DNA from: Lachnospiraceae bacterium
GTDB taxonomy: Bacteria > Bacillota_A > Clostridia > Lachnospirales > Lachnospiraceae
Direction of reading: 5' to 3'
Assembly: GCA_024684065.1 (NCBI GenBank)
Contig: JAIKXO010000133.1
Coordinates: forward strand, 1 to 31,834
Length of the DNA stretch: 31,834 nucleotides
Part shown: positions 9,237 through 23,732 of the stretch, piece after piece
Numbering within the stretch: position 1 is the stretch's first letter
Layout: each line of letters starts with the position of its first letter
Notes under the pieces: generated by a model
What the model saw: the letters and a program-made list of their open reading frames with translations, nothing else
What the model was told of the DNA's origin: nothing
The model's database searches: none
Program-made: the position numbers and the translations under genes

Positions 9237-11096
9237 ATGTGCGGAATTTTTGGGATCATAAATGAAAAAACAGAACCGGAGCTTGCTTCGGAATGCATTA
9301 ACACCCTCTTTCACAGGGGACCCGACGACGGAGGGCTCTGGCAGGACGAGGGTATAACCTTAGGACACAGAAGGCTAGCGATCTTTGATCTGTCCGAAAA
9401 AGGCAGGCAGCCCATGCCGGGGCTCGGAGGAAGATATCAGCTCGTATATAACGGGGAGATATATAACTTCTTAGAGATAAGGCAGGAGCTTATTAAGAAG
9501 GGCTACCGTTTCGAAAGCGAATCGGATTCGGAGGTCATCATTGCGGCCTATGACTGCTACGGACCTGCCTGTCTTGACCTTTTCAACGGAATGTGGGCAT
9601 TCCTCTTATGGGATACAAAGGAGAAGAAGCTTTTTCTGAGCAGGGACCGTTTCGGCGTAAAGCCATTATACTATACAAAGCTGTCAAAAGGCGGCATAGC
9701 CTTTGCTTCTGAAATGAAGGCCCTTTTTCCGCTTATGAAGGAATTGCGTCCAAACCGCAGCCTGGTCTGTGACCCTTCAAGAACGGTATTTTACGAAAGC
9801 ACCGATGAATGCGTGATAGAAGGGATCTTTCGCTTTCCGGCCGGGAGTTATGCCTGTGCGGATCGTGACGGGATGCGTATTGAGCGTTTCTGGGACACCC
9901 TTGATAACCTGGTATCACCGGCGGCAGCTTATGAAGCGCAGGTCGAGGAATTCAGGGAGCTGTTTCTTGATGCCTGCAGGCTGAGGATGCGCTCGGACGT
10001 TACAATAGGAACAGCGCTTTCCGGAGGGCTTGATTCCTCGGCGGTGATCTGCTCCATGGCCCATATGGCCGATTCAGAGAATGAACGGGCAAACAGGGAC
10101 TGGCAGCACGCCTTTGTAGCCACCTTTCCCGGAACAACGATGGACGAGAGCGCCTATGCGAAAAAAGTCACCGATTTTCTTAACATAAACGCCGATTTTA
10201 TAGAGATAGATCCCCTTAAGGCTGTCGACAGGCTTGACGAAATGGTCTATCTTTTCGAAGATGTCTACCTGACGAGCCCGATACCCATGATGCTCTTATA
10301 CGGAGGGCTCAGGAAAAACGGCGTTATCGTCACTATAGACGGCCACGGTGCGGATGAGCTTTTCGGGGGCTATACCTTTGATTTCATTAACGCGCTCAGG
10401 GATGTAAAGAACAAAGACGAGCGTGATATGGTATTAAACGCCTATATCGAAAGCTTTCCGAAGGACGGAAGCAACATGGCTCTTAAAAACAGCTCCAAAA
10501 CAGGCGTCTACCTTTGGTTTCTGAAAAGGCGTCTCAAAGATGCCTTAAGTTCGGGCGGAGAAAAATATAAGCGCGTCAGGGCCGCCGGAAGGCCGGAATA
10601 TAAGGCCATGGACTCCTTAAACAAGATCCTGTACGCCTCCTCCCATGAAAACATCCTTCCCACCCTGTTAAGGAATTATGACAGATACAGCATGGCAAAC
10701 GGCGTTGAGATAAGGATGCCTTTTATGGATCACAGGGTGGTCAGCTACGCCATGTCGATCCCGTGGCGCTCAAAACTCCACGGAGGCTTTTCAAAATCCA
10801 TAATAAGAGACGCGATGGCTCCGTTTATGCCGGAGGAAATAGCCTACAGAAGGACGAAGCTTGGCTTTAATACGCCTATAGTTGAGTGGATGAAGGGACC
10901 CTTAAGGGAATATTTTGAGGATATGGTTTCTTCAAAGAGCTTTAAAGAATGTACTCTTATCGATCCGGCTGAAACAGAGGCATGCATACGAAAAGTTATA
11001 AATAATGATGACGCATCATTCCGGGATGGAGAGAAGGCATGGAGCCTTCTGTACCCTTATCTCTGGGAGAAAAACGTGATAAAACGGGCGGTTTGA
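9237..11096 (+). CDS. asnB: Glutamine-hydrolysing asparagine synthetase-type amidotransferase (AsnB family)
   Basis: A 619-residue two-domain enzyme. Cys2 of MCGIFG is the glutaminase nucleophile, followed by HRGPDD, HRRLAIFD and YNGEIYN typical of class II amidotransferases. The synthetase domain has the pyrophosphate loop SGGLDSS at 262-268 and, later, DGHGADELFGGY. It should make an amide from glutamine, ATP and a carboxylate. True AsnB makes asparagine, but family members in polysaccharide loci amidate sugar acids or other glycan carboxylates, so both roles are open here. It lies within the glycan block, between a glycosyltransferase and the flippase gene. The ribosome site is weak and lies in a tandem repeat. 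Confidence 0.9.
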   Translation: MCGIFGIINEKTEPELASECINTLFHRGPDDGGLWQDEGITLGHRRLAIFDLSEKGRQPMPGLGGRYQLVYNGEIYNFLEIRQELIKKGYRFESESDSEVIIAAYDCYGPACLDLFNGMWAFLLWDTKEKKLFLSRDRFGVKPLYYTKLSKGGIAFASEMKALFPLMKELRPNRSLVCDPSRTVFYESTDECVIEGIFRFPAGSYACADRDGMRIERFWDTLDNLVSPAAAYEAQVEEFRELFLDACRLRMRSDVTIGTALSGGLDSSAVICSMAHMADSENERANRDWQHAFVATFPGTTMDESAYAKKVTDFLNINADFIEIDPLKAVDRLDEMVYLFEDVYLTSPIPMMLLYGGLRKNGVIVTIDGHGADELFGGYTFDFINALRDVKNKDERDMVLNAYIESFPKDGSNMALKNSSKTGVYLWFLKRRLKDALSSGGEKYKRVRAAGRPEYKAMDSLNKILYASSHENILPTLLRNYDRYSMANGVEIRMPFMDHRVVSYAMSIPWRSKLHGGFSKSIIRDAMAPFMPEEIAYRRTKLGFNTPIVEWMKGPLREYFEDMVSSKSFKECTLIDPAETEACIRKVINNDDASFRDGEKAWSLLYPYLWEKNVIKRAV

Positions 11097-11119: not shown

Positions 11120-12913
11120 ATGGGCATTATAAATAAACTGAGTTATATCTTCTCAAAAAAACAGAAGCTTGGCTCCGTGCTTTTATGCATAGGGCTTTTT
11201 ATAGGCGCCCTTTTTGAGCTCATGGGCATTTCCCTGATCACGGGGCTCGTCTCCATAATCACCGATCCCTCGAAGATCCACAGCAATCCTGTATTTAAAG
11301 GTATCTACGAAACCCTCGGCATGAAGTCCGACAGGCAGTTTTTTGCCCTTATGACGGCGGGGCTCATACTTATCTACGTCATTAAAAATCTGTATCTTTT
11401 ATGGCTCGACTATATGCAGTACAAATTTATTTTTGACAATCAGATCCTTATTTCAGGAAGGCTCATAGACTGCTATCTCAAAAAACCCTATACCTATCAT
11501 CTTGATAAGAATTCGGCGGAAATGGTCCGGAACGTTATGCTCGATTCGGAAAGAATGTTCCAGATGCTGCTAAGCGTCTTCTCTCTTATTTCGGAAACCC
11601 TGGTATGCCTGCTGTTATCAATATATCTCTTTGTGGTCGACTGGTTCATAACTGTCTTCGTGGTCTCCATCCTGCTCCTTTTTACCGTTATTTATATGCT
11701 TTTATTCAGGAATAAGGCAAAGGAATACGGAAGGATAAACCAGATCTATGACGGAAAGATGCACCAGTCCATAAACCAGGCTCTCGGAGCCGTCAAGGAT
11801 ATAAAGATCCTGCACAGGGAAAAATATTTCGTAAAAGCCTTTACTTCCTACGGAAGCAAAAAAATGCGGGCGGTACGGAACAACAATATCCTTGGAAATG
11901 TTCCGAAATACCTTATCGAAACTGTCTGCATAGGAACCATCCTGTCAGTGCTCTTAATAAAGATAAATCAGGGCACCGACCTCGGAACGATGATCACTGA
12001 GCTTTCAGCCTTTGCTGTCGCCGCCTTCAAGCTCCTCCCGTCTGTTTCAAAGATCAACAACTACGCAAACCTCATTGTTTTTCTGAAGCCTTCGGTGGAT
12101 CTTATCTACAGGGATATAAAAGATACGGAGGATATGAAGGATTATGAGATAAGCGATAAGGAAGGATCACAGGCCGTACCGGCATCCGTTTTACAGGATA
12201 CCGGGACCGGTTCGGGCAGGGAAGGACAGGAAACCAGTATAAAGATCGAAAATGTTTCATATACTTATCCTGGGAGCAGCACACAGGTTCTTGAAGATGT
12301 AAGCTTTGAGATCCCTCTCGGATACGCGGTCGGGATCGTGGGATCGAGCGGCGCCGGAAAATCCACCATGGCGGATGTGATCCTCGGGATACTGACGCCG
12401 ACCTCGGGAAGAGTCCTTTACGGGGATATGAACGTACACGAGAATCCCCTGAAATGGTCTAAAAAGCTTGCATATATCCCGCAGTCGATATATCTCTCCG
12501 ATGAATCGATAAGGAACAACGTGGCTTTCGGAATAGATGACGAGGCTATAGACGAGGACAAGGTCTGGGAAGCGCTTAAAGAGGCCCAGCTTTACGACTT
12601 TGTCAAAGGACTTCCAGAGGGGCTTGATACAATGGTCGGGGAACGGGGAGTCAGGCTTTCCGGAGGCCAGAGGCAAAGGATAGGTATCGCAAGGGCGCTT
12701 TATGACAATCCGGAGATCCTGGTGCTTGATGAAGCCACCTCGGCGCTTGATAACGAAACGGAGGCGGCGGTCATGGAGGCCATTGAAAGCCTGATGGGAA
12801 GAAAAACACTTATCATAATAGCACACAGGCTTACTACCATTGAAAACTGCCAGATAATCTTCCGGGTAGAGGATGGAAAGGTTACAAGGGAAACCGGCAT
12901 CCTTAACAAATAG
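11120..12913 (+). CDS. ABC transporter, fused membrane and ATPase domains (PglK/MsbA-type flippase)
   Basis: A 597-residue half-transporter that probably works as a homodimer. Six membrane helices occupy about residues 18-330. The ATPase domain has Walker A GSSGAGKST at 408-416, signature LSGGQRQRIGIARAL, Walker B ILVLDEATSALD and the switch histidine in IIAHR. The arrangement is that of PglK and MsbA, which flip lipid-linked sugars across the membrane. Given the neighbours, export of a lipid-linked oligosaccharide is the likely role. A polar, glycine- and aspartate-rich linker at about 336-372 (DTGTGSGREG) between the domains is longer than usual. The next gene begins 23 bases later. Confidence 0.9.
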   Translation: MGIINKLSYIFSKKQKLGSVLLCIGLFIGALFELMGISLITGLVSIITDPSKIHSNPVFKGIYETLGMKSDRQFFALMTAGLILIYVIKNLYLLWLDYMQYKFIFDNQILISGRLIDCYLKKPYTYHLDKNSAEMVRNVMLDSERMFQMLLSVFSLISETLVCLLLSIYLFVVDWFITVFVVSILLLFTVIYMLLFRNKAKEYGRINQIYDGKMHQSINQALGAVKDIKILHREKYFVKAFTSYGSKKMRAVRNNNILGNVPKYLIETVCIGTILSVLLIKINQGTDLGTMITELSAFAVAAFKLLPSVSKINNYANLIVFLKPSVDLIYRDIKDTEDMKDYEISDKEGSQAVPASVLQDTGTGSGREGQETSIKIENVSYTYPGSSTQVLEDVSFEIPLGYAVGIVGSSGAGKSTMADVILGILTPTSGRVLYGDMNVHENPLKWSKKLAYIPQSIYLSDESIRNNVAFGIDDEAIDEDKVWEALKEAQLYDFVKGLPEGLDTMVGERGVRLSGGQRQRIGIARALYDNPEILVLDEATSALDNETEAAVMEAIESLMGRKTLIIIAHRLTTIENCQIIFRVEDGKVTRETGILNK

Positions 12914-12936: not shown

Positions 12937-13926
12937 TTGGAAATAAAACTGAGCGTTATCTTCATAACCTATAATCACGAAAAATATGTTGAAAAAGCAT
13001 TGAGAAGCGTGCTTTCCCAGAAAACGGATTTTGTTTTTGAGGTCGTTATCGGGGAGGACTGCTCTACCGATTCCACAAAGGATATAATATTAAAAACCAT
13101 AGAGGACTATCCTGACAGAAAGGATCATGTAAGGTTCGTCCCGAGAGAGAAAAACACGGGCCATCCGACCCTTAATGTATATGAGACCACAAAGGAGTGC
13201 AGGGGAGAATATCTGGCTTACCTTGAAGGGGATGACTACTGGAGCGATGATTGCAAGCTTCAAAAGCAGGTGGATTTTCTTGAAGAACACAGCGAGTACA
13301 TAGCATGCACCCATTCCTGCGTGATGATAGATGAAAACGGCGAAAAGATCACGGATCCCGGGATCTTAAAAATCGGGGAGCTCTATGACTGGTCCGGAAG
13401 GTTTACCTTTGAGGATTTCAAGTACTCGGAAAGGTGGCCGGGGCATTATGCGACTCTGGTTTCAAGAAACATCTATCCGGAAGAGAAATATGATTATACT
13501 ATTCTCTACAGAGCCCATGATTTTGTGGATGACGCGGTAATCCTCCTGTTCCTTCTGATACAGGGCGATATTTACAGATTCGGCGAAGCAATGAGCGCAT
13601 GGCGGTATGTAAGGAAAACGGGCGCGGGAAACTGGAACTCGATCTCAATGGAAAGGGATAATATCAGGGACGACTGCTATCTTTCACAGACGATCATGAA
13701 ATGGGTCGAAAAGGCGGTAGGGCTTTCCGAATACTCAAAGATACGGGCAGACAAGGACTTCGGGATGGCTCTCAAGATCTTTTTAAAGAGCCCGAACAGA
13801 AAAAATTACCGCTTTCTTAAGGATATGTACGACTATAATATCAGGGAAGTAGTCATGAAGGGCAGAAAGACCACGCTTGCCGGTTATGGCATGAGGACGG
13901 TATTCAGAAAGATAACAGGAAATTAA
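12937..13926 (+). CDS. Family 2 glycosyltransferase
   Basis: A 329-residue GT-A enzyme. SVIFITYNHEKYVEKALRSV starts the nucleotide-sugar fold, EDCSTDST follows, and YLEGDDYW at 95-102 holds the D99-D100 metal site that is typical of the subgroup. The rest shows conserved aromatic and basic segments (WPGHYATLVSR, AWRYVRKTG) seen in enzymes that build capsule or O-antigen-like repeats. The start is a TTG at 12937 with AAGGAA 7 bases upstream; no ATG fits. There is no membrane helix. Donor and acceptor are unknown. Confidence 0.9.
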   Translation: MEIKLSVIFITYNHEKYVEKALRSVLSQKTDFVFEVVIGEDCSTDSTKDIILKTIEDYPDRKDHVRFVPREKNTGHPTLNVYETTKECRGEYLAYLEGDDYWSDDCKLQKQVDFLEEHSEYIACTHSCVMIDENGEKITDPGILKIGELYDWSGRFTFEDFKYSERWPGHYATLVSRNIYPEEKYDYTILYRAHDFVDDAVILLFLLIQGDIYRFGEAMSAWRYVRKTGAGNWNSISMERDNIRDDCYLSQTIMKWVEKAVGLSEYSKIRADKDFGMALKIFLKSPNRKNYRFLKDMYDYNIREVVMKGRKTTLAGYGMRTVFRKITGN

Positions 13927-13956: not shown

Positions 13957-14982
13957 ATGTTTATAGTAAGGATCACGAGCGGACTTGGCAATCAGATGTA
14001 CCAGTATTGCTTTTATCTGCTGTTAAAGAAGCTGTATCCGGAAGCTGCCGTCAGGGCAGACCTTACCTGGTTCTATGCGAATAATGACCATTTCGGGTAT
14101 GAGCTTCAGAGAATATTCGGAAAAGGCGGTTTTCTCCTTGAAGAAGCGGGCCCGGGCGAATTATTTAAGGTCACGGGGCTTATCCCGAATCTTTTTATGC
14201 CTGATGAGATGCTTTCCTTTAAGAACGGGAAAGAATACAGGGGGAGATTCAGCGTAAAGAGCGCAAAACGTTTTGAGGAGATAAGGCGGTATCCGAACAG
14301 GATCATCCGGGAATTTACGCTGAAAAAAAGGCTGCCGTATCTGATCGATGAAACCGGGGTGCTCTGGGAAAACGGACCCGTTTTAAATAACGACGATATT
14401 TATAAGCTGGTATCCTCCCTGGATACTACAAAGAATTACTATTTTACCGGCTTCTGGATAAAAGAAAGATATTTCGGACAGGTTTTAAACGAGGCGGTGA
14501 AAGCCTTTGCTTTCCCGGAATTTGAGGATGAGGAGAATATAAGGCTCGCAGAGGACATTGTTTCTTCTGTCTCCGTGGGGATCCATGTACGGAGGGGCGA
14601 TTATCTTACCGCCTATAAGAACAGCTTCATAAGCCTTCCCGTGGACTATTATAAAGAGGGGATCGATGCTGTCTGCAAAGGGACCGGGATTGACAGGGAT
14701 GGGCTTAAGTTTTATATTTTTTCGGATGACCCTGAATATATCGAATCGGCATTTGCATTTTTAGAAAACAAGCGCGTAGTGGCTCATAATAAAGGAACTG
14801 ACAGCTTTCGCGACATGCAGCTTATGTCCTTATGCAGGCATAACATAATCGCAAACTCAACCTTCAGCCAATGGGCGGCGCTGTTAAATAGAAACAAAGA
14901 ACATCTGACCGTCTATCCTAAGCTCTATATGAAGGATGAGGACAGCGAGGTCAAGACTTTGAAAGGGTGGATAAGATGCTGA
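13957..14982 (+). CDS. GT11 alpha-1,2-fucosyltransferase-like protein
   Basis: A 341-residue enzyme with all GT11 marks. The N-terminal motif is SGLGNQMYQY at 8-17, the donor-binding motif is HVRRGDY at 210-216, followed by FYIFSDD at 252-258, and the C-terminal motif is NSTFSQWAALL at 300-310. GT11 enzymes transfer fucose from GDP-fucose to the 2-position of galactose or a similar acceptor and occur in O-antigen and capsule loci. This implies a fucosylated surface glycan, possibly similar to host H-type structures. GDP-fucose synthesis genes are not in the window. Only 8 bases separate it from the adenylation gene, which ties the glycan block to the Dlt-like cassette. Confidence 0.92.
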   Translation: MFIVRITSGLGNQMYQYCFYLLLKKLYPEAAVRADLTWFYANNDHFGYELQRIFGKGGFLLEEAGPGELFKVTGLIPNLFMPDEMLSFKNGKEYRGRFSVKSAKRFEEIRRYPNRIIREFTLKKRLPYLIDETGVLWENGPVLNNDDIYKLVSSLDTTKNYYFTGFWIKERYFGQVLNEAVKAFAFPEFEDEENIRLAEDIVSSVSVGIHVRRGDYLTAYKNSFISLPVDYYKEGIDAVCKGTGIDRDGLKFYIFSDDPEYIESAFAFLENKRVVAHNKGTDSFRDMQLMSLCRHNIIANSTFSQWAALLNRNKEHLTVYPKLYMKDEDSEVKTLKGWIRC

Positions 14983-14990
14983 ACTGACAT

Positions 14991-16496
14991 ATGGAAACGA
15001 ATATAATCAATTATCTCAGGGCTTCCGCAGAAAGCTTTCCTGAAAAAACCGCATATTTTGACGAAACAGACATATATACCTATAAAGAACTGTATAAGGA
15101 TTCAAAGGCTATCGCGGTAAAGCTGATCAAAAAGCTTAATACGGTATGCAGGCCGGTGCTCATTTATATGGACAAGGCCCCAAGAGTTTTAGGGGCGTTT
15201 TTCGGAACGGTGATGAGCCGCAACTTCTACGTGCCCTTAGATACGGCAATGCCGGAATACAGACTGTCGCTCATTGTCGAAAACCTTAAGCCTGCTGCCG
15301 TGATAACGGATATCTCACATTTTGATGCCGCAAGGACTTTTTCCTCAAATGTTTATATCTATGAGGAGATGATCGAAACGGAAACTGAAGAAAGCCTGCT
15401 TTCCGAAAGGCTTGACCAGGCCATAGATACGGATCCGGTTTATGTATTATATACCTCGGGCTCCACGGGGATCCCGAAAGGGGTGGTGGTATCACACCGC
15501 TCCCTCATAGACTATATAGATCATTTCACGCAGGAGATCGGCATCACTTCCGAAGACGTGATAGCCAATCAGGCGCCTTTTTATTTCGACGCTTCGCTTA
15601 TTGATATCTACTGTACCTTAAAGATGGGCGGGAGCATGGGGATAGTCCCCGCCGAATATTTCTCGATACCCCTTAAACTGCTTCAGTTTCTTGAGGATCA
15701 TAAGATCACCACGATAAGATGGGTACCTTCAGCAATGAAGATCGTGTCGACCTTTAAGGGCTTTAAGTCGATACGCCCCGGATGCCTCAGAAAGATCATA
15801 TTCGGGGCTGAATCGATGCCTGTCAAATGTTATAATTACTGGAAGGAGAATTATCCGGAGGCTGTCTTCGTCCAGATATACGGACCTACCGAGATCACCG
15901 GGGTCTGCACATATCATATCGTGGACAGGGAATACGGCGACGATGAGACGATCCCGATCGGAAAGCCCTTTAAAAACACCGAGATCCTTTTGCTTGACGA
16001 AGAGGACAAGCTGATACGGCGCAAAAACGTGACAGGGGAGATCTGCGTAAAGGGAAGCTGCCTGGCACTGGGCTATTATAACTCTAAGGAACGTACCGAA
16101 GAGGTATTTGTCCAGAATCCGCTGAATCCCTATTATCCGGAAAAAATATACAGGACGGGGGATCTGGCAAAGTATAATGAAAGGCAGGAGCTTGTTTTTG
16201 TATCCCGCAAGGATTTTCAGATCAAGCATATGGGGCACAGGATCGAGCTCGGTGAGATCGAAACTGCCGTTTCCTCTCTTCCCGGGATAAAGGATGTATG
16301 CTGCCTTTTCGAGCCGGTAAAATCGAAGATCGTTTTATTCTATGAGTCGCCGGAGCATGACGAGATCGAGCTTACCGGGCTCTTAAAAAAGAAGCTCGTG
16401 CATTATATGATGCCCAACGTCCTTAAAAGGCTTGAAGCCCTGCCCCATCTTCCAAACGGGAAGGTTGACAGGGTAGAGCTTAAAAAGATGTTATAA
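14991..16496 (+). CDS. Amino-acid adenylation enzyme, DltA-like but without the D-Ala cysteine
   Basis: A 501-residue stand-alone adenylation enzyme. It should activate an amino acid with ATP and load it on the carrier protein encoded next. Core motifs are complete: YTSGSTGIPKG at 154-164, FDAS with the amino-binding D200, YGPTEI at 297-302, YRTGDL at 387-392, HRIELGEIE at 416-424 and the C-terminal lysine K491 in PNGKVDR. In DltA the pocket reads F-C-G-E, with a cysteine that selects D-alanine; here it reads F-G-A-E (271-274). By eye, R243 falls at the pocket position that is lysine in NRPS domains for Asp or Asn. The substrate may therefore be an acidic or polar amino acid. Gene order and motifs are sure; substrate is inference. 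Confidence 0.88.
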   Translation: METNIINYLRASAESFPEKTAYFDETDIYTYKELYKDSKAIAVKLIKKLNTVCRPVLIYMDKAPRVLGAFFGTVMSRNFYVPLDTAMPEYRLSLIVENLKPAAVITDISHFDAARTFSSNVYIYEEMIETETEESLLSERLDQAIDTDPVYVLYTSGSTGIPKGVVVSHRSLIDYIDHFTQEIGITSEDVIANQAPFYFDASLIDIYCTLKMGGSMGIVPAEYFSIPLKLLQFLEDHKITTIRWVPSAMKIVSTFKGFKSIRPGCLRKIIFGAESMPVKCYNYWKENYPEAVFVQIYGPTEITGVCTYHIVDREYGDDETIPIGKPFKNTEILLLDEEDKLIRRKNVTGEICVKGSCLALGYYNSKERTEEVFVQNPLNPYYPEKIYRTGDLAKYNERQELVFVSRKDFQIKHMGHRIELGEIETAVSSLPGIKDVCCLFEPVKSKIVLFYESPEHDEIELTGLLKKKLVHYMMPNVLKRLEALPHLPNGKVDRVELKKML

Positions 16497-16592
16497 TAAG
16501 GGAAAACTGAAAATATCACCTGTAAACTGATAAAAGAAACAATATTTATATTACGTCAGATCACTGATACACGGATCAGATTGGAGAACATA

Positions 16593-16820
16593 ATGGAAGA
16601 TGTTATTGAAATCCTGCGATCGGTTCACCCGGAAATCGATTATGAAACGGAGACAGGGCTTATCAACAAAAAGATATTCGATTCCTTCGATATCGTGACC
16701 CTGGTCGGGGAGCTTATGGACGAGTTTGATATCGAGATAACGGCAGAGCATATGGTGCCGGAGAATTTTAATTCGGCTCAGACGGTCTATGAACTGGTAC
16801 AGACCCTGATGGAGGAATAG
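16593..16820 (+). CDS. Acyl carrier protein, DltC-like
   Basis: A 75-residue acidic carrier protein. DSFD holds the serine that would receive phosphopantetheine, as in the LLDSF motif of DltC. The surrounding helices (DVIEILRSVHPEID, TLVGELMDEFDIEIT, AQTVYELVQTLMEE) match a four-helix carrier. I start it at the ATG at 16593, with GGAG 7 bases upstream; a TTG at 16581 would place that site inside the gene. It is expected to carry the aminoacyl group from the adenylation enzyme to the membrane acyltransferase encoded 50 bases downstream. Confidence 0.9.
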   Translation: MEDVIEILRSVHPEIDYETETGLINKKIFDSFDIVTLVGELMDEFDIEITAEHMVPENFNSAQTVYELVQTLMEE

Positions 16821-16870
16821 GCGGCTCAGGCCGAATATAAGCCTATCCGGAATCTGACGAAAGATTTGCT

Positions 16871-18466
16871 ATGTCATTTATTACACTGAGATTTGCAGGC
16901 TTTGTGATAATTGCTGTCCTGCTTTATTATGTTGTTCCCAGAAAATGGCAGTGGGTAGTTCTTTTAGCCGCAAGCTGGTATTTTTATCTGTGTACCGGGA
17001 TCACAAGGATCTTCTATATTCTTTTTACGACGGCTTCCACATTTTACACTGCCCTTCTCCTGGAAAAGCGAAATATAAAGCAGAAAGCCTATATAAAGGA
17101 TAATAAGGATACCCTCTCAAAGGAAGAGAAAAAAGAATATAAGGCTGCTGTTAAGAAGAAGCAGAAGCGGCTGTTGTTTTTATGTCTGTTAATAAATTTT
17201 TCCATACTGGCATTTTTTAAATACGCTGATCTCTTCATAGCATATTTCAATCTTTTCAGGCTGAACCACTTTGGAAACACTGATTTTGTCCCGTTCCTTA
17301 ACCTGCTTCTGCCGCTCGGGATCTCCTTCTACACTTTCCAGTCGATGGGATATCTGATCGATATTTACTACGGTAAATATGACGCAGAGCATAATTTCTT
17401 CAGGTTCGCTCTTTATGTCTCCTATTTCCCCCAGATAATACAGGGGCCGATCAGCAGATTCGGGGAACTCGCGCCGGAATTATACAGATCCGCGGATTTT
17501 GATCTTTACAGGATCAAATCAGGGTTTATCAGGATAATGTGGGGACTGTTTAAAAAGCTTGTCATTGCGGACCGCCTTGCGGGATATGTACAGGCATCCA
17601 TCTCCATGAGGGAGAGCTATACGGGCTTATATCTGCTCCTTACTATCTTCTTCTATTCAATGCAGATCTACGGGGATTTCTCAGGGGGCATAGACGTGGC
17701 GCTCGGGGTCAGTGAGCTGTTCGGGGTAAGGATAACGGAGAATTTCGAACGTCCATTCTTCTCAAAAAGCATCGCGGAATACTGGCGGCGCTGGCACATT
17801 ACCCTCGGGACCTGGTTCAAGGACTATATCTTTTATCCGCTGTCTGTCGCAAAATGGATGCTTAAGCTCTCTAAATGGGCAAAGACCCGGATAGGGGAAG
17901 GGATCGGAAAGAGGCTGCCTCTTTATCTCCCCATGCTGATCGTATGGACGCTTACGGGAATGTGGCACGGCTCGCAGAGCAGGTATGTGGTCTGGGGGCT
18001 CTTAAACTGCTTCTTTATCATTCTCGGGACCGAACTGGAGCCCCTGTCGCTCCGTATAACCGAAAAGCTCAAGCTGTCGGAGAAAAGCTTCGGCATGAGA
18101 CTTTACAGGACGGCCAAAACCTTCTGGCTCATGGCCTTTTTGAGGGTGTTTGATATATCAACGGGAACGCGGGCGGCCTTTGAAACTATAAGAGATGTTT
18201 TCAGGAACTGGAAAGGCTTTGACTGGGAAATCGTGTTTTCACAGCTTTCTCTTCCGAAGGAGGAGCTCATTGTAGGCCTTGTGGCAATCCTCGTCCTCTT
18301 CTCTGTAAGCCTTATCCAGAGAAAAGGAAGCGTCAGGGAAAGGATATTCAAACTTCCCGTGCCCGCGCAGTGGGCAGTGATGTGCGCGCTCATAACGTGC
18401 GTCATTGTATTTGGAAGCTATGGGATGGGGTATGATGCGAAGGCATTTATTTATCTGAATTTCTGA
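16871..18466 (+). CDS. MBOAT-family membrane O-acyltransferase (AlgI/DltB-like)
   Basis: A 531-residue polytopic membrane protein. The opening (SFITLRFAGFVIIAVLLYYVV) and the second helix with AASWYFYL are typical of the AlgI branch. The MBOAT core shows YFPQIIQGPISRF, YGDFSGG, YWRRWHITLGTWFKDYIFYPL with H309, and LTGMWHGS with the conserved catalytic H366. MBOATs of this kind move an acyl or aminoacyl group through the membrane to an outer polymer. It is longer than typical DltB (about 400 residues) and nearer AlgI in length. Between a carrier protein and an SGNH protein it fills the DltB place. A charged loop at about 66-100 is cytoplasmic. Confidence 0.92.
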   Translation: MSFITLRFAGFVIIAVLLYYVVPRKWQWVVLLAASWYFYLCTGITRIFYILFTTASTFYTALLLEKRNIKQKAYIKDNKDTLSKEEKKEYKAAVKKKQKRLLFLCLLINFSILAFFKYADLFIAYFNLFRLNHFGNTDFVPFLNLLLPLGISFYTFQSMGYLIDIYYGKYDAEHNFFRFALYVSYFPQIIQGPISRFGELAPELYRSADFDLYRIKSGFIRIMWGLFKKLVIADRLAGYVQASISMRESYTGLYLLLTIFFYSMQIYGDFSGGIDVALGVSELFGVRITENFERPFFSKSIAEYWRRWHITLGTWFKDYIFYPLSVAKWMLKLSKWAKTRIGEGIGKRLPLYLPMLIVWTLTGMWHGSQSRYVVWGLLNCFFIILGTELEPLSLRITEKLKLSEKSFGMRLYRTAKTFWLMAFLRVFDISTGTRAAFETIRDVFRNWKGFDWEIVFSQLSLPKEELIVGLVAILVLFSVSLIQRKGSVRERIFKLPVPAQWAVMCALITCVIVFGSYGMGYDAKAFIYLNF

Positions 18467-18490
18467 CCATGGAAACATCCGGCACCGATA

Positions 18491-18558
18491 TGCCGCTTTA
18501 CGGCACGCGGCCGGCACGTACTCATTAACGAAACGGCAGGCCATTTCGTTAATGAGTA
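18491..18558 (+). repeat. Two hairpins between the MBOAT and SGNH genes
   Basis: TGCCG/CGGCA at 18491-18505 forms a small hairpin. TACTCATTAACGAAA (18519-18533) and its exact complement (18544-18558) form a 15-bp perfect stem around a 10-base loop. No T run follows. The gap is otherwise non-coding. Confidence 0.7.
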
Positions 18559-18640
18559 TAATAAGGCATTCAGCGGATAATCATGATTTTATGCGTCAGG
18601 TGCTTTGGACGCTATAACACTGTTATCAGAAAATATTAAA

Positions 18641-19717
18641 ATGAAAAGCAGAGAAGATCACGGAAGGATAAATCACATACTGCTCCTTTTATTTAAGACT
18701 GTTCTGGCGGTGCTTTTGTTTACTGTGCTAAACAGGGTCTTTATGCCCAAATACGTGAGCGAGAACCCGGACGGCCATATCACGGAGGATTTTTATAAGG
18801 AAAAGCTTCCTTTAGATGTTATTTTCGTAGGCTCTTCCACCGTATACAGCGCCGTATCCCCTCCGGTATTGTGGGAAAGGCAGGGCTTTGCCTCCTATGA
18901 CAGGGGTAATGCTTCCCAGCCTATGTGGATCTCCTACTATATGATAGAGGATGCGTTTAAAAGCGGAAGGAAGCCTGAGCTGGTGGCTCTGGATGTGGGC
19001 TTTATCAAATATGATGACAATTTCGTCGAAGAGCCTTCAAACAGAAAGGCTCTTGACGGAATGAGGCTTTCTCGCGTAAAGCTTGATGCCGTCAAAGCGG
19101 CTAAGGGAGAGGATGAAAAGGTGATCGATTATATCTTCCCCATATTAAGATTCCATACAAGGTGGAAGGAGCTGTCACTCGAAGATTTCGAATATGTATT
19201 CAGGAATGCTTATGTGGATCATAACGGATACCTGATAAACTATAACGTGACCGATTCCCTGCCCGAGAGGGATGGGCCGCGATATATGAACGAGGATATC
19301 GAGATCTCTAAACGAAACAGGGAATATCTGCTTAAGATCATAGAGCTTTGCAGGGATAACGGTACCGGGTTGTTTTTGATGAAGGTCCCGAGCTATTCAA
19401 ATAACTGGGGGTACCATTTTGACGACCAGATAAGGGAAATAGCAGAGCCATACGGGATAGACTATGTAAATTTCGATGAATCCGCAGATGAGATAGGACT
19501 TGATTACAACATTGATTCCCCGGATAACGGGAATCACCTGAATACTTACGGCGCGGAAAAATTCAGCGCTTATCTGGCCGATTATCTTAAAGCCCATTAT
19601 GAGCTTTCTTCTCATAAGGAGGATGAAAAGTACAGAAAAGTATGGGATGAAAAGCTTGAAAGATATGAAGCGGATAAGAAAACCGGGATGGGATCAGCCG
19701 GTCCTGACGGCTGCTGA
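18641..19717 (+). CDS. Membrane-anchored SGNH-type protein in the DltD position
   Basis: A 358-residue protein from the ATG at 18641. A TTG at 18605 is in frame and would add 12 residues; neither start has a good ribosome site. One membrane helix at about 13-33 anchors it with the rest outside. VGSSTVYSAVSP (about 63-74) is the nucleophile block of SGNH/DltD proteins, and NHLNTYGAEKFS near the end holds the histidine. The acid residue is one place further from that histidine than usual (D-N-G-N-H). DltD-type proteins complete the transfer of an aminoacyl group to the outer polymer. It closes the A-C-B-D cassette. The last 35 residues are charged and poorly conserved. Confidence 0.82.
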   Translation: MKSREDHGRINHILLLLFKTVLAVLLFTVLNRVFMPKYVSENPDGHITEDFYKEKLPLDVIFVGSSTVYSAVSPPVLWERQGFASYDRGNASQPMWISYYMIEDAFKSGRKPELVALDVGFIKYDDNFVEEPSNRKALDGMRLSRVKLDAVKAAKGEDEKVIDYIFPILRFHTRWKELSLEDFEYVFRNAYVDHNGYLINYNVTDSLPERDGPRYMNEDIEISKRNREYLLKIIELCRDNGTGLFLMKVPSYSNNWGYHFDDQIREIAEPYGIDYVNFDESADEIGLDYNIDSPDNGNHLNTYGAEKFSAYLADYLKAHYELSSHKEDEKYRKVWDEKLERYEADKKTGMGSAGPDGC

Positions 19718-19857: not shown

Positions 19858-21099
19858 ATGGACAAAAAAAGAGAGATATCCTTAGAGAGAGCCCGGGAAC
19901 TTTACAGTGAAATAGAAGATTTCTTAAGCTTTAAGGAGGAGTTTTTAAATGAGACCTCCCAGAAAAGAGATGTGATCTCAAAAAATCATAAGAAAGAGAT
20001 CCTTGAATACTTTGGAGCGTCCGAAGAGAACTGGAACGACTGGCACTGGCAGCTTGCCCACAGGATAAGCTCAGTGTCTATCTTAGGTAAATTTATAAAG
20101 CTTTCCGATCCCGAGATCAGGATGTTTCAGGAAATATCGAGAAAATACAGATGGGCGACGACCCCGTATTACCTGTCCCTCATGGATTATGAGGATATGA
20201 CCTATCCCATTAACATGATGGCTCTCCCCTCTGCCGCCGAGAACAGCCCGGAAGGCGAGCTCGATCCCATGGGGGAAGAATATACAAATCCCGCCCCGTG
20301 CATAACCAGAAGATATCCAAACAGGCTCATAGTAAACGTAACCAGCTCCTGTGCCATGTTCTGCAGGCATTGCCAGAGAAGAAGATGCATCGGGGAAGCT
20401 GACAGGATCGAATCGGAGGAAAACATAAGCGCCGCGATCGAATACATAAGGAACACTAAGGAGATCCGTGACGTGCTCATCACGGGAGGGGATCCGATGA
20501 TGCTGCCTGACGAGCTTCTGGAAAGCATAATAAAAAGAGTGCGGGAAATCCCTCATGTAGAGATAATAAGGATAGGTACCAGGGTGCCGGTCACCATGCC
20601 GCAGAGGATCACTGAAGAACTTGCCTCGATGCTTAAGAAATACCATCCTCTTTTTATAAATACCCAGTTCAACCACCCCGGTGAGCTTACTGAAGAAGCC
20701 GTAAAAGCATGCACAAGGCTGTCGGATGCCGGAATCCCTCTGGGAAACCAGATGGTATTTTTAAAGGGTATCAATAATGACAAATACATTGTCCAGCTTT
20801 TGAACGAAGGGCTCTTAAAGGCAAGGGTGAGGCCGTACTATATCTTCCACCCCAAGCAGGTAAAGGGCACCGGGCATTTTGAGATAACCGTGGATGAGGG
20901 CCTTAAGATCATGAAGTACCTGAGGGGCCATACATCCGGGCTTGCGATACCGCAATATATAGTAAACGCGCCAAACGGATACGGAAAGATACCCCTTCTT
21001 CCCAATTACATCGAAGAAAGCGATGAATACCATGTGAAGCTTAAGACCTGGGAGGACAGGGAGGTCGAGATAACCTACGGGCATCATTATGAGGGCTGA
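19858..21099 (+). CDS. eam: KamA-family radical SAM aminomutase, glutamate 2,3-aminomutase type
   Basis: A 413-residue PLP- and iron-sulfur-dependent enzyme. C165, C169 and C172 (CAMFCRHC) bind the 4Fe-4S cluster, R174 corresponds to the carboxylate-binding arginine of lysine 2,3-aminomutase, and K377 in APNGYGK is the PLP lysine. In lysine aminomutase two aspartates 37 residues apart hold the lysine side chain. Here they are K333 (FHPKQVKG) and N370 (YIVNAP), also 37 apart. This Lys/Asn pair is the one reported for Clostridioides difficile glutamate 2,3-aminomutase. The product would be beta-glutamate, known as an osmolyte. GAGG precedes the ATG by 7 bases. It is convergent with the esterase gene and probably transcribed separately from the cassette upstream. 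Confidence 0.88.
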   Translation: MDKKREISLERARELYSEIEDFLSFKEEFLNETSQKRDVISKNHKKEILEYFGASEENWNDWHWQLAHRISSVSILGKFIKLSDPEIRMFQEISRKYRWATTPYYLSLMDYEDMTYPINMMALPSAAENSPEGELDPMGEEYTNPAPCITRRYPNRLIVNVTSSCAMFCRHCQRRRCIGEADRIESEENISAAIEYIRNTKEIRDVLITGGDPMMLPDELLESIIKRVREIPHVEIIRIGTRVPVTMPQRITEELASMLKKYHPLFINTQFNHPGELTEEAVKACTRLSDAGIPLGNQMVFLKGINNDKYIVQLLNEGLLKARVRPYYIFHPKQVKGTGHFEITVDEGLKIMKYLRGHTSGLAIPQYIVNAPNGYGKIPLLPNYIEESDEYHVKLKTWEDREVEITYGHHYEG

Positions 21100-21152: not shown

Positions 21153-23633
21153 TCAGTCAGCCATGTCCTTCATTACAAAGGCGAACGAATCTATGACATA
21201 GGGCAGATAAAACGCACTGTCATGTCCGCCCTCTCCCAGCTCGAAATAATGAGGGATATCCTTTTCCCGCAGGTTCCTGTCAAGGTCGACCGCCGGTATC
21301 CCGAATTTGTAAAGATCCCTGTTTCCGGCAATAAAGAACTGCCTGAAACGGGAAAGCTCCTCTTTATCCATCCTTCGGGCTTTCAAAAGCGGATTCGCGC
21401 CCATATTGATCGCTCCGAAATAACTGATTATGCCACTGAACAGTTCCGGATGAGAAAGCCCTATGCTGTATGCCCCGCATCCGCCCATGGAAGCGCCCGC
21501 GCAAAATCTGTGCCCGGGGTCCGCTATCGTACGGTAGCGGCTGTCCACATAGGGAAGTATCTCCTCCGTTACCATCTTCTCCCAGTCTCCCATCCAGAAA
21601 CCGTCTTCATTGCTGTCAGGAGCTATCATGATAAGCTCCGGAAGCTTTCCGGAAAGGATCGCGCCGGTTACGAGCCTGTCGATCCCGTCAATCCTGTATG
21701 AGTTAGCCGTGCTGTTCAGCTGGTGAAAAAGATAAGCCGTTGGATAACGCTTTCCCTTATTTTCCGGATCAAAATATCCGGCCGGAAGATAGACAAGAAA
21801 GCTTTCCGGTACGGTCTTTTCCTTTTCATTCAGCGCCAGGGCCCGGAAAGCGGAATCAATCTCCATTTTGAAAAACCTGCCTTCCTGCTCCTTTTCCTCT
21901 TCTTCCTGCGCATCCGGATCAAGAGCAGCGTACGCTGCTTCGGTATAAAGCCCGGGATGCCCCGTATACCAGCCGCCGTCTCCCGAGATGTTATGGGTCA
22001 GGATGATCACGCTGTTAACCCCGCCGTAATTAAGCAGCTCCCCTGAAACCATATAAACACGTTTCGTATCCCAGAAGTCCTTAAAAGGCTGCCAGGTATC
22101 CGTATCCATACCGGTAGATCCCACCGGCTTTCCGTTAACGAAAACAATATCCGTTTCATCAAAGCATCCCACGGGAAAATACACTGTCTCCCTGGGGAAA
22201 TCCTCCGGCACCTCAAATTCCTTCACATACCAGGCATAACCTGTATAGGCTTTCATGTCTGTCTCTCCGGAAAAATCAGAGTCCCACCATTCAAGGGCCG
22301 GAAGCACATCCTCCCAGGCCTCGTACTCTGAAGCCTTAGGAAGCCGGCCGGGCTCAATGTCCTTTACCGCCTTGAACCTCCATTTCCCCATCAGGTCGAT
22401 AAAGCGGCCCTCTTTGATATCCTCCGCTGACTGTATCCGGACAAGCGGCTCGTCGCAGAGCTTTACCCGGGCTCCCAAAAGCCCGGCATAAAGAGTTACG
22501 ACAGCGCTTTGCCCGTTAACAATATTTGAGATCCCGACAGGATCCGGTCTGTTATCTATAGTCCCCGCAGAAACACCTATCTCCTTTCCCGAAGCTTCAG
22601 AAAGAACTGATCCGTCAGACGGATCGGTTATCTCAAGATAAGGTATGAGCTCTATCTCCTTATCCTTCGCGTATTCCAAAGCCTCCTGCGACAAAGTGAC
22701 CTCATAGACCGCTTCGATCTCTGAAACATTCTTATCCGCAGCCTGAGGGGAAAGCATAAGCTTTCCGTCTATAAGGGATGAAAACATCCGTCCCGTGAAG
22801 CCTGTGAGCATTCTCTGCACGGCATCCTTCCTGTACGCCCCGTCGTCCTCCCCGTTCTTTACGGTCAGGGACAGCATGGTTTCATCACCGTTGCCGTAAT
22901 AATCATAATACATCCCCGCATAGGCCGTGCCCTTAAGGATAAGAAAAGAGATGACATCATTCACTCCTCCCGCAATATAGGAAAGCGGATCCTCCGAAGC
23001 CGCAGTCATAAAGGTATAAAACTGCGACAGGAAAGGATTGGACATTTTCCGCTGGTTACTGACCGAAAGAAGGCTTTCATATCTGTCAAGCCAGGGATTA
23101 TCCTGCGACACATAATCCCCGCTTATGCTTCCGGAAAGCCCGAACAGCCCGGGCTCATATAAAAGTTCTCCGTTTTCATCGGTAAAGGTGAGCATTGAAG
23201 CTAAAAAGCCTCCGCAGCCGGCGCCTGCTGCCGCCCGTCCCCATGGATCTTGTATTGTCCTGTAGCTTTTATCCACCTCTTCTACGAGAGCCCTCAGGCT
23301 CTCATGAGCGTTGGCGGACTTATCCGATGTAGGGTCCGGCAGGTCGGGACAGACTATGATCATATCCATCACGCTGTCTGTGTCCATAGCTGAAAGATAG
23401 TCTTTCACCGACTCTTCTGTTTCCGCATGTATACCGTCCTCCGGAAGGATATATACCGTCGGATAGAAGCGGCCGCTTTCTTCATAGCCTTTTGGCAGAA
23501 ACACCTGATAAGAAGGCGGCCCGGACAGAGCCGGTCCGGTTTCGCTTAAGACATTATTTCCCGGGAAGTTAGCGCATCCCGCTATGCAAACGGCTAAAAC
23601 GCATACGATCATATAAAGTATTTTCCGCCTCAT
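21153..23633 (-). CDS. Lipoprotein with two esterase-like domains around a beta-sandwich; first domain has Cys for Ser
   Basis: An 826-residue secreted lipoprotein. A signal peptide ends in the lipobox IAGC (C20). The N-terminal domain (about 35-250) looks like an esterase of the Esterase D/feruloyl esterase type, with YRTIQDP followed by GAGCGG at 137-142, where C140 replaces the nucleophile serine. A middle beta-sandwich with YAWYVKEFEVP and DIVFVNGKPVGS resembles the sugar-binding domain of GH2 enzymes. The C-terminal domain repeats the plan: YRTIADP, then GASMGG with S715, D773 (GNRDLY) and H804 (GGHDS), a full triad. It probably removes acyl or feruloyl groups from glycans outside the cell. 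The start is the ATG at 23633, six bases after GGAG; an ATG at 23639 abuts that site. Confidence 0.86.
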   Translation of the reverse strand: MRRKILYMIVCVLAVCIAGCANFPGNNVLSETGPALSGPPSYQVFLPKGYEESGRFYPTVYILPEDGIHAETEESVKDYLSAMDTDSVMDMIIVCPDLPDPTSDKSANAHESLRALVEEVDKSYRTIQDPWGRAAAGAGCGGFLASMLTFTDENGELLYEPGLFGLSGSISGDYVSQDNPWLDRYESLLSVSNQRKMSNPFLSQFYTFMTAASEDPLSYIAGGVNDVISFLILKGTAYAGMYYDYYGNGDETMLSLTVKNGEDDGAYRKDAVQRMLTGFTGRMFSSLIDGKLMLSPQAADKNVSEIEAVYEVTLSQEALEYAKDKEIELIPYLEITDPSDGSVLSEASGKEIGVSAGTIDNRPDPVGISNIVNGQSAVVTLYAGLLGARVKLCDEPLVRIQSAEDIKEGRFIDLMGKWRFKAVKDIEPGRLPKASEYEAWEDVLPALEWWDSDFSGETDMKAYTGYAWYVKEFEVPEDFPRETVYFPVGCFDETDIVFVNGKPVGSTGMDTDTWQPFKDFWDTKRVYMVSGELLNYGGVNSVIILTHNISGDGGWYTGHPGLYTEAAYAALDPDAQEEEEKEQEGRFFKMEIDSAFRALALNEKEKTVPESFLVYLPAGYFDPENKGKRYPTAYLFHQLNSTANSYRIDGIDRLVTGAILSGKLPELIMIAPDSNEDGFWMGDWEKMVTEEILPYVDSRYRTIADPGHRFCAGASMGGCGAYSIGLSHPELFSGIISYFGAINMGANPLLKARRMDKEELSRFRQFFIAGNRDLYKFGIPAVDLDRNLREKDIPHYFELGEGGHDSAFYLPYVIDSFAFVMKDMAD

Positions 23634-23732
23634 TGCCATCTCCTCTCTTAAAATACAAAGGAAAAACCGATTATCAGCGTCTCCCTGTGCAATCCCGTTT
23701 TTACATGAAATGATATTTTGTATCCGGTCACT

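Follow-up and report, generated by a model that had tools for sequence, protein, structure and literature searches.

The 31,834-nucleotide contig JAIKXO010000133.1 of a Lachnospiraceae bacterium (assembly GCA_024684065.1), whose full length we call the window, carries a cassette that is probably dedicated to beta-glutamylation of a cell-envelope polymer. It encodes a stand-alone adenylation enzyme (A-enzyme), a carrier protein, an MBOAT acyltransferase, an SGNH acyltransferase and a radical SAM enzyme that resembles glutamate 2,3-aminomutase (EAM). In the proposed pathway, the EAM-like enzyme would turn L-glutamate into beta-glutamate (3-aminoglutarate), which the A-enzyme would adenylate and load onto the carrier; R243 would pair with its free distal carboxylate and D200 with its amine. 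Crossing the membrane by way of the MBOAT, the acyl group would then be attached to the tyrosine in the FIYLNF tail at the C-terminus of that protein. The SGNH partner would take it over on its serine and esterify an extracellular polymer. The resulting ester would be zwitterionic, unlike the cationic D-Ala ester. The sequences themselves show gene content and order, residues, motifs, close linkage and a correlated change of the pocket, from which substrate, chemistry, acceptor and effect on charge are inferred. All envelope aminoacylations known to us use D-Ala, Gly and similar alpha-amino acids. We lean towards regarding the cassette as a new class of envelope modification, in which an extracellular polymer would be esterified with beta-glutamate from a dedicated, on-site radical SAM aminomutase, and as one branch of carrier-fed, shuttle-fused MBOAT cassettes whose branches have their own supplier of a non-protein amino acid.

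The original prediction for this DNA described a Dlt-like system of four genes in the order A-C-B-D. The A-enzyme, carrier, MBOAT and SGNH genes indeed follow each other in this order on the plus strand at 14991–19717, and there is no separate DltX-like gene among the open reading frames (ORFs) of at least 60 amino acids listed. A fifth cassette gene, which the prediction did not include, starts 140 bp 3' of the SGNH stop codon. It encodes a KamA-family protein. With an aminomutase gene in the cassette, beta-glutamate becomes the leading substrate candidate; before, it had been merely one of several suggested test substrates.

The best model for the KamA-family protein is TIGR04368 (glutamate 2,3-aminomutase), which leads by 174 bits, the lysine model giving 426.7 bits and the arginine model 367.4 bits. 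In the alignment with lysine 2,3-aminomutase 2a5h, K333 and N370 replace D293 and D330. The window enzyme therefore shows the K/N-for-D/D exchange of glutamate 2,3-aminomutases; we take D293 and D330 to hold the lysine side chain in the lysine enzyme and K/N to mark the glutamate enzyme, which was reportedly treated by Ruzicka and Frey in 2007. A lysine-type aminomutase producing beta-lysine was rejected on the basis of K/N rather than D/D at these sites. A tree of 61 rows groups the 25 K/N enzymes in a single clade (support 100/99), separate from the D/D rows. The cassette EAMs make up 13 rows inside this clade (98/93), with the long-branch enzyme of locus L163 as their sister (99/96). Identity to the window EAM is 62–85% for cassette enzymes and 51–55% for K/N enzymes that stand alone. 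Best family match, residues and clade are shared with glutamate 2,3-aminomutase; the cassette EAMs differ as a separate lineage, and the window EAM by a score under the cut-off of the model. The window EAM is predicted to convert L-glutamate to beta-glutamate.

Linkage of the EAM to the cassette was followed in the best 80 of at least 598 matches found with the A-enzyme alignment, and the genomes of 35 of these 80 loci were checked in full. Fourteen loci have A-enzymes of at least 55% identity, all with the R243 pocket. An EAM lies 3' of the SGNH gene in eight of them (with one gene between in L002), four contigs stop too early for an EAM, and two loci (L008, L009) are complete cassettes without one. 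No EAM is found in the 66 loci at 46–49% A-enzyme identity, an absence that is well tested only in 37 of them, where none of the four genes is missing and 2 kb or more follow SGNH. At the level of whole genomes, 11 of the 14 R243-pocket genomes contain an EAM; it is absent from G008, G009 and G013, and the contig of G013 stops inside SGNH. The 21 other genomes contain a single K/N enzyme, in G018, with no cassette in its neighbourhood.

Among 397 genomes of the family, an A-enzyme of at least 58% identity occurs in 6 and an EAM of at least 63% in 5 of these 6 but in none of the remaining 391; the Fisher value of 7.5e-11 for this co-occurrence is uncorrected for kinship, and Fisher values here are not to be taken at face value because the variant-pocket clade described below is a single evolutionary event. 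The EAM was rejected as a general housekeeping gene of the family, given its presence in 5 of 397 genomes. The other 18 aminomutase matches in these genomes reach at most 50% identity (17 D/D, one R/S). The genus was surveyed in 37 species, 31 of which encode the A-enzyme. Where its pocket is canonical, an EAM accompanies it in 27 of 28 species, and where its pocket is variant, in none of three; the contig of the one exception, G899, stops inside the MBOAT gene. The six species lacking the A-enzyme include two with an EAM, G885 and G909 (whose contig begins at the carrier gene), and four without either. K/N is found in 31 of 31 EAM-positive genomes in which these residues are covered. The distance between EAM and SGNH in 34 EAM-positive genomes is at most 150 bp in 23 and 1.2–2.2 kb in 9 (up to 2.2 kb in G003); the other two (G004, G890) have no SGNH gene in the EAM stretch examined. 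A tRNA-synthetase-like gene lies between the two in L002, L149 and L247 (PF00579 in L002, the others by eye), together with an RmlD-like gene in L149.

Absence of the EAM coincides with a change in the pocket. The three variant-pocket species (G008, G009, G886) have complete four-gene cassettes without EAM, and their pocket reads DAVRIGNGV. The sole aminomutase of G008 and G886 is of the D/D type at 42% identity. In the tree, the variant clade (8 rows, 100/99; G886 is not in the tree) nests within the clade of EAM-bearing A-enzymes. With identical sequences counted once, six variant and 125 distinct canonical sequences are separated by six fixed differences in 501 positions, and two of these six are the pocket positions I204V and I296N (hypergeometric p 0.004 for the pocket share; 0.014 with conserved positions alone as background). 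Two homologs among the best 120 of 8000 have just one of these pocket changes, N296 in P0073 and V204 in P0095. Pocket and supplier change together, so that the substrate prediction is directly testable.

The A-enzyme scores 332.6 bits on the amino-acid adenylation model TIGR01733, over the cut-off, and 276.1 bits on the DltA equivalog TIGR01734 against a cut-off of 559.85, which does not assign it to DltA. Five clostridial DltA controls (L191–L195), each followed by a DltB over cut-off (435–500 bits on TIGR04091 against 375), score 501–549 bits on TIGR01734 and likewise fall under its cut-off, so that the gap between the window enzyme and real DltA is about 225 bits. The AlphaFold model of the A-enzyme (predicted local distance difference test, pLDDT, 84.5) matches the structures of TycA, ApnA, LgrA, GrsA and DltA. 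The ten-residue code of nonribosomal peptide synthetases (NRPS) was placed on the enzyme by motif and reads D-A-I-R-I-G-I-G-V at residues 200, 201, 204, 243, 270, 272, 296, 304 and 305, corresponding to code positions 235, 236, 239, 278, 299, 301, 322, 330 and 331. The alignment with the five DltA is gapless across the pocket region. R243 (code 278) sits where the controls carry V or I, and G272 (code 301) where they carry C (two), V (one) or I (two). Across 39 aligned relatives there is no variation at R243, G272, A273 or E274, and all 120 homologs listed, the best of 8000 candidates scored, retain D200 and R243.

D200, R243 and F271-G272-A273-E274 are therefore as the original prediction described them, and its selectivity site, where a cysteine would have spoken for D-alanine, holds G272. 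A pocket for something other than D-alanine is supported by the invariant arginine at 278 and by the missing cysteine at 301, although this cysteine is not universal in DltA, being present in only two of the five controls. The same four protein kinds and the fold shared with DltA would be expected if this were a usual esterification system for D-alanine (or glycine) whose DltA has diverged. Such a system does not fit R in place of V/I at 278, the lack of cysteine at 301 (also lacking in three of five controls), a DltA model score at half the cut-off, or an aminomutase for which it has no need, and we regard it as the least probable of the alternatives discussed here. An acidic substrate, as originally suggested, is plausible from the invariant R278 and from an adjoining gene that looks like a maker of an acidic amino acid. 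R243 falls on a code position which we take to be lysine in Asp/Asn-activating NRPS domains. What does not hold is the step from a conserved D200 to an alpha-amino acid: VinN-type adenylation enzymes for beta-amino acids hold the beta-amino group via the same conserved Asp (PMC11253843).

Several observations weigh against beta-glutamate as the product and substrate of this cassette. VinN-type enzymes are characterised by bulky residues at 236 and 301 and by a beta13–beta14 loop that is one residue shorter (PMC11253843). The window A-enzyme has neither, with A201, G272 and no loop gap relative to DltA. EAMs of the wider K/N clade occur without a cassette in 10 of 10 neighbourhoods examined, and no A-enzyme of this kind is found at E 1e-60 in the ten genomes with such solo EAMs; EAM must therefore have other uses. 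The variant-pocket species, numbering three, represent one evolutionary event. In L008, L009, L146, L147, L148 and L247, the cassette lies amid housekeeping-type genes, judged by eye from translations. G885 keeps the genes for carrier, MBOAT, SGNH and EAM but yielded no A-enzyme; ahead of its carrier gene are gpsA-, plsY- and der-like genes, recognised by eye. Finally, the window EAM scores 600.7 bits on TIGR04368, under the cut-off of 650.

The alpha-type loop, the small residues at 236 and 301, R243 at the presumed lysine position and the existence of solo EAMs are all consistent with an A-enzyme that activates an acidic alpha-amino acid (L-Asp or L-Glu), the EAM being independent, for instance in making osmolyte beta-glutamate, and linked by chance or co-regulation. 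We consider this unlikely: the EAM goes with the A-enzyme in nearly all genomes checked and is missing where the pocket changes, and an operon for L-Asp or L-Glu would have no use for an aminomutase. The gene cluster of G885 would also suit a scheme with alpha-glutamate as the amino acid that is loaded by the A-enzyme and then rearranged on the carrier by the aminomutase, and the asparagine-synthase-like (AsnB-like) amidotransferase gene upstream of the cassette in the window, L001 and L006 would suit a further modification of beta-glutamate, such as amidation, before transfer. Either is very unlikely, as KamA enzymes act on free amino acids and the AsnB gene shows no conservation alongside the cassette. 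The score under the TIGR04368 cut-off leaves slightly less room still for an aminomutase acting on another amino acid, such as glutamine or arginine, in which case a different beta-amino acid would be attached; the K/N pair and the clade are shared with EAMs over the cut-off, and the arginine and lysine models score far lower. Beta-glutamate from L-glutamate remains the reading that we prefer.

The long-branch sister of the cassette EAMs (G501; L163, L196), itself a K/N enzyme, lies downstream of ABC-transporter-like genes, and no second cassette is found in the 15.6 kb examined around L163.

The window group is not alone in carrying a gene that may serve amino acid supply. A sister group of 54 of the 80 loci (among them L017, L027, L033, L044, L047 and L068) has K or R at 239 and C at 278 (DAKC... 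or DARC...). A direct search found an amino-acid racemase gene in 45 of these 54 loci, in 40 of them within 200 bp before the A-enzyme gene, and in 0 of 26 other loci; clustering of ORFs of at least 100 amino acids gave 41 of 54. Four of four racemases tested pass both TIGR00035 (aspartate-type amino-acid racemase) and the cysteate model NF052483, which leaves aspartate, glutamate and cysteate as possible substrates; all three that were checked against PF01177 match it. In 40 of 54 loci the racemase is preceded by a surface protein, which in the two tested has Ig-like and transglutaminase domains, and no EAM is found in any of the 54. The SGNH motif is G-D-C-E in the sister group (one S-D-C-E, L023) versus G-[SAP]-S-T in the window group, which places Cys at the nucleophile site in 22 of 22 aligned sister rows and Ser in 12 of 12 window-group rows. 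The sister cassette is likely a D-amino-acid decoration system. By analogy, cassettes of the superfamily appear to share the theme of bringing along their own source of an acidic non-protein amino acid, and the sister racemase in this role supports the EAM as substrate supplier of the window cassette.

A third group of A-enzymes (L024, L031, L036, L037, L052, L062, L074, L075, L080) has the FCGE motif with F278 and Cys at the DltA position. In the cluster analysis only two of these nine loci have an MBOAT gene; L024 and L036 are labelled Treponema. That these FCGE enzymes are true DltA was rejected, as the tested L031 falls under the DltA cut-off.

The three remaining cassette proteins indicate how the amino acid could reach the polymer. 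The carrier protein has weak NCBIfam matches to the AmcB and DltC carrier proteins, under cut-off, and no Pfam match. The MBOAT contains the PF03062 domain and scores 142.7 bits on TIGR04091 (DltB) against a cut-off of 375, which does not make it a DltB equivalog. It is AlgI-sized, as had been predicted, with 531 amino acids versus 381–395 in five DltB controls, and fits the AlgI/PatA type. Its C-terminal end, FIYLNF, matches FXYXXF. An FIYxxF end is present in 10 of 12 MBOATs of the clade with a complete C-terminus; the other two (L008, L009), from variant-pocket cassettes, end in FIYGNI. DltX carries D-Ala on the tyrosine of FXYXXF, and PatA-type MBOATs have this motif at their own C-terminus, on two extra helices, in pathways described as having no carrier protein (PMC12148441). 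The shuttle motif on the C-terminus of the MBOAT itself accounts for the lack of a DltX. Together with the feeding by A-enzyme and carrier, the FIYLNF end implies a hybrid cassette, fed in the manner of Dlt and with a shuttle of the Pat type.

The SGNH protein has no match in Pfam or NCBIfam. Its AlphaFold model (mean pLDDT 89.1, from a 35-row alignment) opens with one long helix and is matched by Foldseek to SGNH/GDSL hydrolases, with a best E of 1.8e-4 and PatB at E 5e-3 and probability 1.00. Seven rows have E of at most 0.001, three of which are designed scaffolds, and DltD is not among the 50 matches listed. The fold match, the serine in GSST and a D-x-G-x-H motif (alignment of block I and of the H-motif) identify the protein as an SGNH partner.

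Compared with Dlt teichoic-acid D-alanylation (DltA, DltB, DltC, DltD, DltX), the cassette shares the A-enzyme, the carrier, the MBOAT, the SGNH partner, a carrier thioester as likely donor and the acyl-Tyr shuttle motif FXYXXF. It differs in gene order, in the pocket, in the aminomutase of the operon, in scores under the cut-off of Dlt models, and in a larger MBOAT with C-terminally fused shuttle where no DltX is seen. AlmEFG lipid A glycylation similarly uses a dedicated A-enzyme and carrier to decorate a surface glycolipid with an amino acid, but with glycine and another transferase; AlmE is mentioned in PMC11253843. PatA/PatB and AlgI-type MBOAT-SGNH O-acyltransferases share the C-terminal FXYXXF of the MBOAT and the SGNH partner, and differ in using acyl-CoA without a carrier (PMC12148441), where the window cassette feeds an amino acid through A-enzyme and carrier. 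A precedent for beta-glutamate in a pathway with a stand-alone A-enzyme is incednine biosynthesis, which supports the beta-glutamate reading. Its starter pathway (IdnL4/IdnL3/IdnL1) includes a putative EAM, IdnL4, for which no in vitro activity was seen, has beta-glutamate as an intermediate, and uses a stand-alone A-enzyme that loads a beta-amino acid onto a carrier (PMC11284099). There, beta-glutamate is decarboxylated to 3-aminobutyrate for a polyketide (PMC11284099), whereas the window pocket is not VinN-like, and a scan of the window proteins finds no decarboxylase or polyketide synthase.

In the window, the cassette comes after glycosyltransferase and flippase-like genes (Table 1). Of the 80 loci, only L001 and L006 likewise have the glycosyltransferase family 11 (GT11) gene and the AsnB-like gene (71–74% identity) close to the cassette, and the glycan locus was rejected as a defining partner. 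The carrier gene adjoins the A-enzyme gene in most loci with enough contig.

Table 1. Genes of the cassette and of its upstream setting in the window
Feature	Position	Strand	Remarks
Amino-acid adenylation enzyme (A), stand-alone	14991–16496	+	501 aa; TIGR01733 over cut-off, DltA models under
Carrier protein	16581–16820	+	79 aa; TTG start, ATG possible at 16593; DSF attachment motif by eye
MBOAT acyltransferase	16871–18466	+	531 aa; PF03062; C-terminal acyl-shuttle motif FIYLNF
SGNH acyltransferase, DltD/PatB-like role	18605–19717	+	370 aa; N-terminal helix; likely ATG start 18641
Glutamate 2,3-aminomutase (EAM)-like radical SAM enzyme, proposed beta-glutamate supplier	19858–21099	+	KamA family
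GT11-family glycosyltransferase	13957–14982	+	PF01531; 8 bp upstream of A; glycan locus, outside conserved cassette
ABC transporter, oligosaccharide-flippase-like (PglK/MsbA type)	11120–12913	+	NF050066 322.1 bits, under cut-off; glycan locus context
GT2 glycosyltransferase	12937–13926	+	PF00535; glycan locus context
Asparagine-synthase-like amidotransferase	9237–11096	+	TIGR01536 435.8 bits, over cut-off; glycan locus context

Asparagine-synthase-like amidotransferases are also seen near the sister cassettes L043, L065, L069 and L071 (28% identity), in addition to the window, L001 and L006; these enzymes may amidate a sugar or the acid that is attached. Convergent with the aminomutase gene, the window encodes an 828-aa lipoprotein-like protein with a C-terminal esterase domain (PF00756) at 21153–23639 on the minus strand. 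A scan for promoters and terminators gave nothing notable (17 promoter-like sites versus a mean of 12.4, sd 4.0; 3 terminator-like versus a mean of 7.3). In L002 (11585–15648 and 17645–18418), two large lipoprotein-like genes (HAD-type and a weak GH43 match) lie between A-enzyme and carrier, and a gene of the inositol-monophosphatase family lies between MBOAT and SGNH. In two genomes, a large hybrid histidine kinase with a GGDEF domain is encoded directly 3' of the aminomutase (L147 13853–16861, L148 4499–7513).

The open-access literature searched holds no report of beta-glutamate or 3-aminoglutarate on glycans or an envelope polymer, nor of an aminomutase with Dlt. The gene content suggests that carrier-fed (Dlt) and shuttle-fused (Pat/AlgI) designs combine in nature. 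Beta-glutamate is measured in gut samples (PMC12502400), and the cassette, if our reading is true, could account for a bound pool of it. It would also supply a function for some glutamate 2,3-aminomutases. For the bacterium itself, a beta-amino-acid ester would mean a zwitterionic and possibly more hydrolysis-resistant coat.

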